This document shows, in pieces, positions 8,206 to 27,668 of a stretch of 35,022 nucleotides of DNA; the stretch's first letter is position 1; each line of letters begins with the position of its first letter. The position numbers and the translations under genes were made by a program. Source of the DNA: SAR202 cluster bacterium (GTDB lineage Bacteria; Chloroflexota; Dehalococcoidia; SAR202; CAJWER01); the NCBI GenBank assembly GCA_030740335.1, contig JASLXL010000063.1:1-35022 (forward strand), in the 5' to 3' direction. The notes under the pieces are model-generated. The model was not told the origin of the DNA. It worked only from the letters and a program-made list of their open reading frames with translations, and did no database searches.

Positions 8206-8970
8206 CTATGACCTTCCTTTGCGATCCAAGAATTCCTTGAACCCCTCAGAAATGGGGGTCGGAGTGAGGTTGCCGCTCTGCGCCTCAAGCTCGGCCCGAT
8301 ACATCTCCTCCCAGCTCGTGCCCATGTCTGATAGGAGCAGCTGCTTTATGCCCGCCACCATGCGCGGGTCGTTGGAGGCGATCTGCTTGGCCAGTTCCAT
8401 CGCCTTGCCCATCAGGTGGTCCTTCGCAACGAGGTGGTTTAGCAGGCCCACGCGGTGGGCTTCTCGTGCCTGTACTACCCGTGCTGTAAACAGCAGTTCC
8501 TTGGCCATCGGCCAGCCTATCTGCTGGGGCAGATTCCAGGTGGAGTTGACCCGGCCATAGGATGCCGCGAGGAACCGAAAACTGGTGTTTTCGCATCCCA
8601 CCCGCATGTCCATGCTCGCGGCCATTACTGCGCCACCACCATATGCCAGGCCGTTTATTGCGCCAATGGTTGGCTTGGTGCAGCTGGCGATGTGCCATCC
8701 ATACGCGGCACGCGCGGGGTCTTCGGGGGGCAGGTCTGACCCTTCGGCCAGCCGGGCCATTTCATGTATGTCAGCCCCGGCCGAAAATGCCTTGTCTCCG
8801 GCGCCGGTGAAGACGAGGGCGCCTACTTTGGTGTCCGCCTCGAGCTCCGTAATCGCCTCGTCAAGTTCGCGGGTGAGGGCACGGCTGAGGGCGTTGAGCA
8901 CCTTCGGGCGTTTGAGTGTGATTACACCAACGCTCTCGTCTCGCTCCACGGTGATGTTTTCGTAAGCCAT
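8206..8970 (-). CDS. Enoyl-CoA hydratase/isomerase (crotonase) family protein lacking both catalytic Glu
   Basis: The 254-residue protein has the crotonase fold signatures: VGVITLKRPKVLNALS near the N terminus, the oxyanion-hole motif AFSAGADI, and NGLAYGGGAVMAASMDMRVG. Aligned without gaps to rat enoyl-CoA hydratase, Glu144 (GGGCEL) is Val here (GGGAVM) and Glu164 (FGQPE) is Ala (FRFLA). It is therefore unlikely to be an ordinary hydratase; isomerase, hydrolase, decarboxylase or another CoA-thioester reaction is possible. The start at 8970 fits the beginning of the conserved domain and has GGAG upstream; an in-frame extension to 9063 would run across the promoter. It is the first gene of the operon with the CoA-transferase. 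Confidence 0.92.
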   Translation of the reverse strand: MAYENITVERDESVGVITLKRPKVLNALSRALTRELDEAITELEADTKVGALVFTGAGDKAFSAGADIHEMARLAEGSDLPPEDPARAAYGWHIASCTKPTIGAINGLAYGGGAVMAASMDMRVGCENTSFRFLAASYGRVNSTWNLPQQIGWPMAKELLFTARVVQAREAHRVGLLNHLVAKDHLMGKAMELAKQIASNDPRMVAGIKQLLLSDMGTSWEEMYRAELEAQSGNLTPTPISEGFKEFLDRKGRS

Positions 8971-9002
8971 GGTAGGTCGCTCCACAGGGGTATGGCCGCG
9001 CC

Positions 9003-9032
9003 AATATAGCAGTGGGTCTTCGGGGCGGTCAA
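9003..9032 (-). promoter_or_regulatory. Promoter of the crotonase / CoA-transferase operon
   Basis: On the minus strand TTGACC (9032-9027), an 18-bp spacer and TATATT (9008-9003) form a good sigma70-type promoter. Its predicted start lies about 26 bases before the ATG at 8970, leaving room for the GGAG ribosome site. Confidence 0.65.
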
Positions 9033-9110
9033 GGCAGGCGCTCCCTTGGAGCGTGGACGCCAAGCCGTGGGGCTGTGTATGATGTCGGAGGTCAAGTAGG
9101 AGGACCTCAC

Positions 9111-10036
9111 GTGGGCGTTAAAGAGCTATCGGAGAATCCCCGCACCGCGGGATTATCGCGAATCAAGTACCTGCAGAGCCGAGGCTCTGAGGAGCAAATG
9201 GCCGAATTTCTCAACGCTCTGTTCCCGGAAGCGTTCAAAGCCAGACACAACGGCGACTATGATACTTTTATCGAGTTCTGGTAGGGGTGGGAGGATGTGA
9301 CCCTGACCGGCCAGTTCAACACCATGGAATTCCCGGACGTAGAGATTTCGTGGGCGACCCTTTCCAGTCCGCTGAGCAGAGCGCAAAGGTCGTATTGGTC
9401 ACCACGGGTGGCCTATATGTCGAAGGGCAAGAACCTTTTGGTTGTGGGGAAACCTAGTACCGCCGGATACCGAGCGATGTGCGGTAGGAGGACATTCGGA
9501 TTCTCCACCATGGCTACGACAACAGGCCGGCAAATCAGGACATCAACTGCGTCTATCCCCTCGGTCGGTTCAAGGAGATGGAATCGGAGGGCAAAATAGC
9601 CGAGCTTTCGGGTACCGGCTACTCCTTCATGGGGATAATCAACGACACCGAGACCTTGATCAACGAAAGTGCGCCGGAGGTCGCCCTCTTCCTGAAGTAG
9701 GATGGGGTCGACGCCGTATTCCTCGCGTCGATCTGACCGATCTGTAACCGGTCCGTTGGACTGGTAGTAAGGGCGATTGAGGCTGAAGGCATCCCGACCG
9801 TGATCACGATGATGTACAAGCAGGTTGTAGATGCTCTGTGGCATCCGCGGGTGGCCTACGCGCGCTTTTCTTTTGGTCACCCCATGGGAGAGCCCGGCAA
9901 TGGTGATCAGCAACGGGTGGTTATCGAAGACGTGTTGGAACTGCTGATGATCGCCACCGAGCCTGGCACCATCGAGGCGCTGCCATACCGATGGCGTTGC
10001 GAGGACTACGCGAAGATCAGAAGAGAGCGGGGCTAG
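9111..10036 (+). pseudogene. Decayed GrdB/PrdB-like reductase (selenoprotein B family), with TGA at the Sec/Cys position
   Basis: A GTG at 9111 with an excellent AGGAGG site opens a frame that stops at TAG 9282. Family homology resumes and, after a frameshift near 9380-9390, continues one frame over to TAG 10034. Recognisable blocks are VVLVTTGGLYVEGQEPF, YRRIPSDV, QDINCVYPLGRF, YSFMGIINDTE, DGVDAVFLASI-TGA-PICNRSVG, AIEAEGIPTVI, FSFGHPMGEPGN and PGTIEALPYRW. They match the glycine/sarcosine/betaine/D-proline reductase selenoprotein B family and its Cys homologues. In-frame TAG codons interrupt it at 9282, 9455, 9485 and 9698. Four ambers plus a frameshift mean it is broken, although residue conservation is high, so the decay is recent. 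The TGA at 9734-9736 is listed separately. It is followed in the same direction by an AcsA-like remnant. Confidence 0.82.
9734..9765 (+). other. In-frame TGA at the family's selenocysteine position with a candidate bacterial SECIS hairpin
   Basis: TGA (9734-9736) lies in DAVFLASI-x-PIC, where GrdB/PrdB proteins have Sec in a U-x-x-C motif and homologues have C-x-x-C. Downstream, ACCGGTCC (9747-9754) pairs fully with GGACTGGT (9758-9765), including one G-U pair, around a GUU loop. The loop begins 18 bases after the TGA. This agrees with the bacterial SECIS pattern as I know it: a small apical loop about 16-37 nt from UGA, with a G in its first two positions. The alternative is a Cys codon (TGC or TGT) mutated to TGA in a dying gene, with the hairpin arising by chance. 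Confidence 0.45.
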
Positions 10037-10100: not shown

Positions 10101-11453
10101 CCAATCGAGAACGATTCCGAGACAGCGAGCTTTGACTGGGCTCAGGCCTACGACCAAATGGCCTGGTTGCCTGGCGGCGCGCTCAATATGGCTCACGAGG
10201 CAATTGATCGCCACACCCGAGGTCGCCTCGCCCGCAAGATCGCCCTGATTTGGCTGGGTCGCAACGGCGAACGTGAAGAGTACACCTTCGCCCAAGTTCG
10301 TGAGTTGTCCAACCGATTTGCCAACGTTCTGCTGAGCCTGGGTATAGTCAAAGGTGACCGCATCGCCATTCACCTCGACCGGGTTCCCGAGAGCTACTTT
10401 GCTCTACTAGGCATCCTCAAGACCGGTGCAATTGCATGCCCTGTGTTCTCGGGTTTCAGCCCGGAGACGCTAAGGGACCGCATGAAAAAAACAGAGGCCA
10501 AGGTCCTGATTACACATCCCCAGTTGCGCCGAGGTCTCGGCGACCTTGTATACGAGCTGTTTGAGTTGCAGCATATCGTTGTTGTGAACAAAGACGGTCG
10601 ATATCCAGAGCATCCGGAGACTGCCGATCTCGACTATTACGAAGAGATGTCGAAGGCATCGACGACGTTCGTAATCCTGCCGACCAGTCCCTACGACACG
10701 GCTTTGCTGCACTACACGTCCGGGGTGACCGGCGAACCCAAGGGAGTGTTGCTGCGCCACCAATCCATAGTGCAACAGGCCTTAACTGCCAGGTCGATAC
10801 TCGATCTGCGGCCCGGTGATGTCTACTGGTGTACCGCCGACCCCGGCTGGTTTGTTGGCACTACATACGGGTGCCTGGCGCCCTGGGCTGTGGGCGCGAC
10901 CGTGGTGGTACGCGAGGGGCTATTTGAAGCCGAGGCGTGGTACAGGCTGATACAGGAGGAGCACGTCACCGTGTGGTACAGCGCGCCGACCGCCCTGCGA
11001 TTGTTGCAAACTGGGTCCCTCGATCTGCCCGCAGGATACGACCTGTCGTGTCTGCGCCTTGTGGCCAGTGTGGGTGAGGTCCTGGAAGCTGACACAGTGG
11101 AGTGGAGCGTTGGTGTTCTAGGAACGCCGATCCGTAACACCTGGCTACAGACGGAGACCGGCGCGGTCATGTGTGCCGTATACCCGTATATGGACTCGCC
11201 CCTGGGTTCGGCTGGGAAGCCTGGACCGGGGGTAGATCTGGCAGTCCTTGGCCGTGATTTCAGGCGAGTGGAGACGGGGACAACCGGGAATCTGGGGATA
11301 CGCCCCGGATGGCCGGCCATGTTCCAAGGCTATTGGGGGGACGACGACGACGAGTACAACTCGCGGTTCAGAGGAGGGTGGTATGTCACTGACGACATGG
11401 CCCGAATTGACACCGACGGCTACGTATGGATTGAGCGCAGGACCGACGGCTAG
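10101..11453 (+). pseudogene. Acetyl-CoA synthetase-like (AcsA-type) AMP-forming ligase, truncated at both ends
   Basis: About 450 residues match the short AcsA-type acyl/acetyl-CoA synthetases: FDWAQAYDQMAWLPGGALNMAHEAIDRH at the start, LLHYTSGVTGEPKGVLL (P-loop-like adenylation motif), ADPGWFVGTTYG, NTWLQTETGAVM and GGWYVTDDMARIDTDGYVWI. The protein stops at ERRTDG-TAG, where functional enzymes continue with a GRADDVIKTAG-like hinge and a ~110-residue C-terminal lid carrying the catalytic Lys; that lid is absent. On the 5' side homology starts before the first usable ATG (10158) and meets an in-frame TGA at 10089 inside a dispersed repeat. The core has no internal stop, so a shortened protein could still be made, but it should not complete the CoA-transfer step. 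Confidence 0.8.
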
Positions 11454-27523: not shown

Positions 27524-27668
27524 GGTGTGCAGAGCAGCGGGAGTCCCTATGCCGGAGGTATCACAGGGCGCCACTCACAAGGGTTATTCCTCTCTTAATC
27601 GAGGAGATGGGGAGTGCAGAGAGGCGATAGCCCCCTATCCCGGGAGTGTGAGGGTGTCCCTCACAGAC
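27524..27668 (+). repeat. Dispersed repeat R3, two copies (one degenerate)
   Basis: 27611-27668 reads GTGCAGAG...GATAGCCCC...CCGGGAGTGTGAGGG with a 7-bp hairpin (GTGAGGG / CCCTCAC, loop TGT, 27648-27664) and a T-rich run beyond. A degenerate copy starts at 27524 (GTGTGCAGAGCAGCGGGAGT). A third copy lies inverted at 32674-32733. Confidence 0.65.

Follow-up and report, generated by a model that had tools for sequence, protein, structure and literature searches.

In the Sargasso Sea, the UxxC 'proline reductase PrdB' ranked third in abundance among selenoproteins, with 42 genes (PMC1088965), and PrdB in GOS comprised 235 Sec and 110 Cys sequences (PMC2398784); in a later GOS study 'proline reductase' made up 6.4% of selenoprotein genes (PMC9402790). 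Members of this marine family (Sargasso Sea, GOS; pfam07355) combine a UGA at the first position of UxxC, a SECIS just downstream and membership of PF07355, all of which are common to the gene described here. The available parts of PMC1088965 and PMC2398784 leave the host group unnamed, whereas close homologues of our gene come from records titled Chloroflexi. It also differs from the marine genes in being a pseudogene.

Two other systems are close. Clostridial D-proline reductase PrdB (TIGR04483) has homology, the UxxC motif and the Sec position in common with our gene, and GrdB (TIGR01917/TIGR01918) shares the PF07355 family and an aligned Sec site, but the motif reported for GrdB is UxxCxxC (PMC13188914), compared with U-P-I-C-N-R-S here. 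Remnant SECIS-like structures have been described after Sec-to-Cys conversion (PMC1794560); in contrast to the remnants described there, the present one includes the TGA itself.

The gene lies in a window of 35,022 nucleotides, the whole stretch of DNA that was analysed. It adds a member, now decayed, to a known family, enzymes of this kind having been known since 2005, and motif and Pfam family together suggest that it belongs to the marine UxxC PrdB subfamily. Its features are as follows.

about 9111..10036, + strand: decayed PrdB/GrdB-like UxxC selenoprotein gene, from GTG 9111 to TAG 10034-10036, with a frame change near 9385
9282..9284, + strand: inactivating in-frame TAG in the N-terminal part
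9455..9457, + strand: inactivating in-frame TAG
9485..9487, + strand: inactivating in-frame TAG
9698..9700, + strand: inactivating in-frame TAG just 5' of the Sec codon
9734..9736, + strand: in-frame TGA, almost certainly the selenocysteine codon of the U-P-I-C motif
9743..9745, + strand: TGT, Cys of UxxC
9747..9765, + strand: hairpin, almost certainly a bacterial SECIS, of 8 pairs including one G-U, with a 3-nt loop GTT that starts with G

The selenocysteine site and its hairpin

From 9734 the + strand reads TGA CCG ATC TGT (TGA-Pro-Ile-Cys) in the frame that encodes the C-terminal portion of a PrdB-like protein, and the TGA occupies the first position of the redox motif, where the earlier note had placed it. 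In a first set of 15 related loci the aligned codon was TGA in all. We then drew on 117 genomes chosen as relatives of G004, the genome of the syntenic locus L004; at a cut-off of E <= 1e-10, 53 of them held a match. Each of the 75 matches has one TGA inside it, with stops other than TGA in three and none in the remaining 72. The codon aligned to 9734 was TGA in all 52 fetched loci that cover the site; with seven repeats of a stretch set aside, these amount to 45 distinct sequences in addition to the window. By record title, the TGA-bearing loci include Spirochaetes, Pyrinomonadaceae, Ktedonobacterales and Deltaproteobacteria; one locus (L015) is without the second Cys of the motif. Thus the comparison of TGA with Cys codons that the earlier note had called for came out on the side of TGA.

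Among 66 homologues in the protein database (P0001-P0066), 14 end at most six residues before the motif, 50 are C-terminal pieces, one is of another kind, and only P0001 spans the site, with Cys. The 66 were examined as proteins, a form in which the stop codon behind the 14 ending at the site is not visible. The 64 split proteins look cut, as would be expected from gene callers that stop at TGA. The sources of some of the 66 call them 'D-proline reductase (dithiol) PrdB', a name that looks as mistaken as the cut.

Just downstream of the motif, arms ACCGGTCC (9747-9754) and GGACTGGT (9758-9765) enclose the loop GTT (9755-9757). The earlier note had described an 8-bp, fully paired stem with a GUU loop 18 bases after the TGA: the eight pairs and the loop stand, but it is the loop that starts 18 nt past the TGA, the stem starting at 10 nt, and one of the pairs (9750 with 9762) is G-U. 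Bacterial SECIS elements are characterised by a guanosine in a small apical loop (PMC1088965). Of 46 distinct sequences, 45 carry G as the first or second loop base and one breaks the rule, which agrees, together with the covariation below, with the earlier proposal that the hairpin fits a bacterial SECIS. Each of the four stretches that were folded contains the hairpin in its minimum-energy structure, but the z-scores (-2.06, -0.39, 0.18 and -0.91) make folding energy alone weak evidence. The pairing exceeds chance: among 20,000 versions of this window stretch redrawn with synonymous codons, 292 formed all eight pairs.

The hairpin does covary. The set comprised 46 distinct sequences, the window and the 45 others with L015 kept, giving 368 cells. 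Paired cells amounted to 90.2%, compared with 72.0% in shuffles, and the covariation score was 0.492 compared with 0.139; neither value was reached by any of 500 shuffles. Sliding the pairing by 1-3 columns left at most 42.7% paired and a score of at most 0.096. The count of two-sided changes does not stand out, since the six of eight pairs that show them are reached by 36 of 500 shuffles, and a slide of +2 gives eight two-sided pairs and 19 pair types compared with six and 17 for the true hairpin. RNAalifold recovers five core pairs unaided, each with two-sided changes.

Because the stem lies inside coding DNA, we made a synonymous-codon control (2000 runs), in which the window's codon usage was applied to every species. 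The observed 332 of 368 paired cells compare with a mean of 229 and a maximum of 254, and the five core pairs are all formed in 44 of 46 sequences compared with a mean of 3.3 and a maximum of 11. Judged from these alignments, compensatory changes have preserved the hairpin in the relatives, to a degree beyond synonymous codon choice. Rfam, searched with the full window at E up to 1, returned no match; thus no Rfam SECIS or tRNA-Sec model speaks for or against the hairpin.

Decay of the gene in the window and in L004

The window copy is a pseudogene of the UxxC PrdB-like selenoprotein family. Its frame is interrupted, apart from the TGA, by four TAG codons and a frameshift, and it is these lesions that carry the claim, not amino-acid replacements. 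The TGA and hairpin are nevertheless kept, much as the earlier note had pictured a Sec signal preserved as a fossil in a broken copy. The start at GTG 9111 was set by analogy with P0026, which opens V-D-L-K-E-L. Two predicted proteins of 207 residues, P0005 and P0009 (88% identity over 45% of the query), are unbroken at the protein level from their start until just before the Sec position; thus copies open up to that site exist.

L004, from a record titled uncultured Chloroflexi (isolate ERR599008_bin.106), is syntenic with the window, at 88-92% DNA identity in long pieces. Going by this match and by the titles of L001-L004, the window would derive from a Chloroflexota bacterium, perhaps one of the SAR202 type. 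Its counterpart gene is without the stretch matching about 9280-9596 and a further 21 bases, and it retains the TGA and the hairpin, with one stem pair broken. No lesion was shown to be common to the two copies: opposite the window's TAG at 9698, L004 has a sense codon, two of the other TAGs fall inside the stretch absent from L004, and the first lies at its edge.

Substitution rates between the window and L004, calculated with our own Nei-Gojobori script, differ along the gene. In the C-terminal half (121 codons) dN/dS is 0.38, compared with 0.18 for CaiB, 0.13 for EchA, 0.16 for AcsA and 0.08 for part of CocE in four neighbouring stretches, and this raised value fits relaxed constraint. The N-terminal part (window 9111-9278, 56 codons) gives a dN/dS of 0.12, and replacements at conserved columns are not in excess in the window or in L004 (2 of 34 in each, with 0-6 among 50 homologues); both results would count against decay. 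The dS of that N-terminal part is oddly high, about 1.17, compared with 0.22-0.33 in neighbouring genes, hinting at a different history, for example recombination with a related copy.

Selenocysteine machinery in relatives and rival readings

The machinery for selenocysteine was sought in the genomes of relatives reached through related loci. A tally of SelB, tRNA-Sec and SelD at E <= 0.001 was uninformative, as it rings in all 14 control genomes, and counts over the cut-offs were used. SelA exceeds its cut-off in ten of ten genomes and SelB in eight of ten; the SelB wing domain is found in seven of eight (G002 is without it), and SelD in seven of eight (not in G004), with an in-frame TGA in each of the seven. 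For tRNA-Sec, the cut-off of 47 bits was passed by nine of ten genomes, but also by five of 14 controls and by second hits in four of the ten, so we took only scores of at least 56 bits as clear. This leaves eight of ten genomes, with G004 (44.9) and G009 (47.3) below the line.

The nearest relative, G004, is itself a MAG in which SelA and the SelB wing domain are present, and in which we found no SelD over the cut-off, no clear tRNA-Sec and no second PF07355 gene (PF07355 matches number none in G004, two in G001 and one in G046). These gaps may reflect MAG incompleteness, or a Sec trait partly lost together with the broken gene. From the relatives we infer Sec use in the window's own organism as well, and for the lineage the suggestion of selenoprotein use made from the window alone is borne out by these counts.

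The null already named in the earlier note is that a Cys codon (TGC or TGT) mutated to TGA in a decaying gene and that the hairpin arose by chance. A copy that is broken elsewhere too would allow this, as would the existence of a Cys form of the family (P0001, and the 110 Cys homologues in GOS; PMC2398784) and a folding energy that is unremarkable in three of four stretches. It fails on the relatives: TGA stands in 52 of 52 related loci, the hairpin covaries strongly and beyond coding constraint, and Sec machinery is found in relatives. With a conserved TGA and a covarying hairpin in intact relatives, we reject the mutation, whose chance we regard as extremely small.

Two further readings keep the Sec codon and dispute the decay. 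The first, that an intact Sec gene was missequenced or misassembled, gains something from the close copies open up to the site (P0005, P0009), and we consider it very improbable: four stops and a frameshift fall in one gene while the four neighbouring stretches keep a dN/dS of 0.08-0.18 against L004, and the syntenic gene in L004 is broken in other ways. That the gene is still expressed, with TGA read as Sec and the TAGs as an amino acid through suppression or pyrrolysine, draws on the fact that all four inactivating stops are TAG. However, a frameshift breaks the gene as well, the L004 counterpart has large deletions, dN/dS is raised in the C-terminal half, 72 of 75 matches in relatives are without a stop other than TGA, and the window gene and its L004 counterpart both terminate at TAG; its probability is close to nil. 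Both readings were rejected. Thus, we conclude that TGA 9734-9736 is almost certainly a genuine Sec codon, and that the hairpin is likewise a genuine bacterial SECIS; the gene around them later became a pseudogene.

The enzyme family and its neighbourhood

The window piece matches TIGR04483 (PrdB) at E 2.4e-35 over profile positions 67-236 of 238, and PF07355 (GRDB) at E 4.7e-10. The earlier label 'GrdB/PrdB-like' holds as family resemblance, but the curated cut-offs of both enzymes are missed. The TIGR04483 score is 122.1 bits against an equivalog cut-off of 300; the best matches in intact relatives (G001, G002 and G003) reach 176-194 bits, and none of four relatives' genomes exceeds 300. The GrdB models TIGR01917 and TIGR01918 give 48.0 against 602.2 and 56.7 against 65.45 bits.

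Partner subunits were scarce. PrdA (TIGR04480), searched for without a positive control, had matches in none of eight relatives' genomes, all MAGs. PF09338, the family of component B partner subunits that we take to cover PrdA also, was found in one of eight (G002 only; MAGs of unstated completeness), and that hit indicates that such partner genes are findable by search in this group. G002, a Chloroflexi MAG (L031, L032, L063 and L064), carries two GrdB-type Sec genes, with UGTC and UGSC, each immediately followed by a PF09338 partner gene, and separately from these a U-P-V-C gene.

The gene has one neighbour on either side.

8206..9063, - strand: divergent gene of the enoyl-CoA hydratase family, next upstream, present in L004 and L033 as well
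10158..11453, + strand: AMP-forming acyl-CoA (acetyl-CoA-type) synthetase, next downstream, conserved neighbour, 431 aa, short at its C-terminus

The same arrangement occurs in L033 (genome G046), with EchA divergent upstream, a Sec gene open apart from its TGA, and an AcsA-type synthetase downstream. L001 and L002 have the synthetase downstream too, and no synthetase match lies within the fetched flanks of loci other than L001, L002, L004 and L033.

In the window (10158-11453) and in L004 (3547-4836) the synthetase ceases to follow its family at one shared stretch of residues, after which the window gene stops at 431 aa and that of L004 adds about ten unrelated residues before its stop; from the same start point the protein has 545 aa in L001 and L002. 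The common truncation apparently remains under constraint, dN/dS between window and L004 being only 0.16. A 58-base stretch at window 27606-27663 is 83% alike to L004 5549-5604, in opposite orientation and, in L004, within extra DNA behind the synthetase, and is perhaps a small dispersed repeat.

The scores and the neighbourhood speak against 'D-proline reductase' as an automatic label. Intact, the enzyme is probably not a D-proline reductase, as the cut-off is missed, seven of eight genomes give no GrdE/PrdA-type partner, and an acyl-CoA synthetase adjoins the gene in the closest relatives. The U-P-x-C subfamily thus resembles PrdB and GrdB but probably performs another reaction, on a substrate perhaps handled with the adjoining synthetase. 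Tentatively, and with a probability we place just short of even, we propose that the U-P-x-C proteins form a separate selenoenzyme, neither D-proline nor glycine reductase, that does without a GrdE/PrdA-type pyruvoyl partner and acts together with the adjoining AMP-forming acyl-CoA synthetase in Chloroflexi; in this lineage its gene would be disappearing through decay and not through Sec-to-Cys replacement.

Bacterial Sec decoding relies on SelB with Sec-tRNA and a hairpin downstream of the UGA. In intact relatives, the ribosome would reach the UGA that opens the redox motif U-P-x-C, SelB with Sec-tRNA would bind the hairpin with its loop some 18 nt further on, and Sec would be inserted. The resulting enzyme would probably be a thiol/selenol reductase of the PrdB/GrdB superfamily, acting beside the acyl-CoA synthetase. 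In the window copy, the four TAGs and the frameshift would halt translation, no full enzyme would be made, and the Sec codon and hairpin would persist as a remnant.

A Sec codon that is almost certainly real survives here, hairpin included, in a broken gene, and selenoproteins of a type met chiefly in ocean metagenomes are linked to records titled Chloroflexi. Together, the window and L004 catch a selenoprotein gene during its loss by decay.
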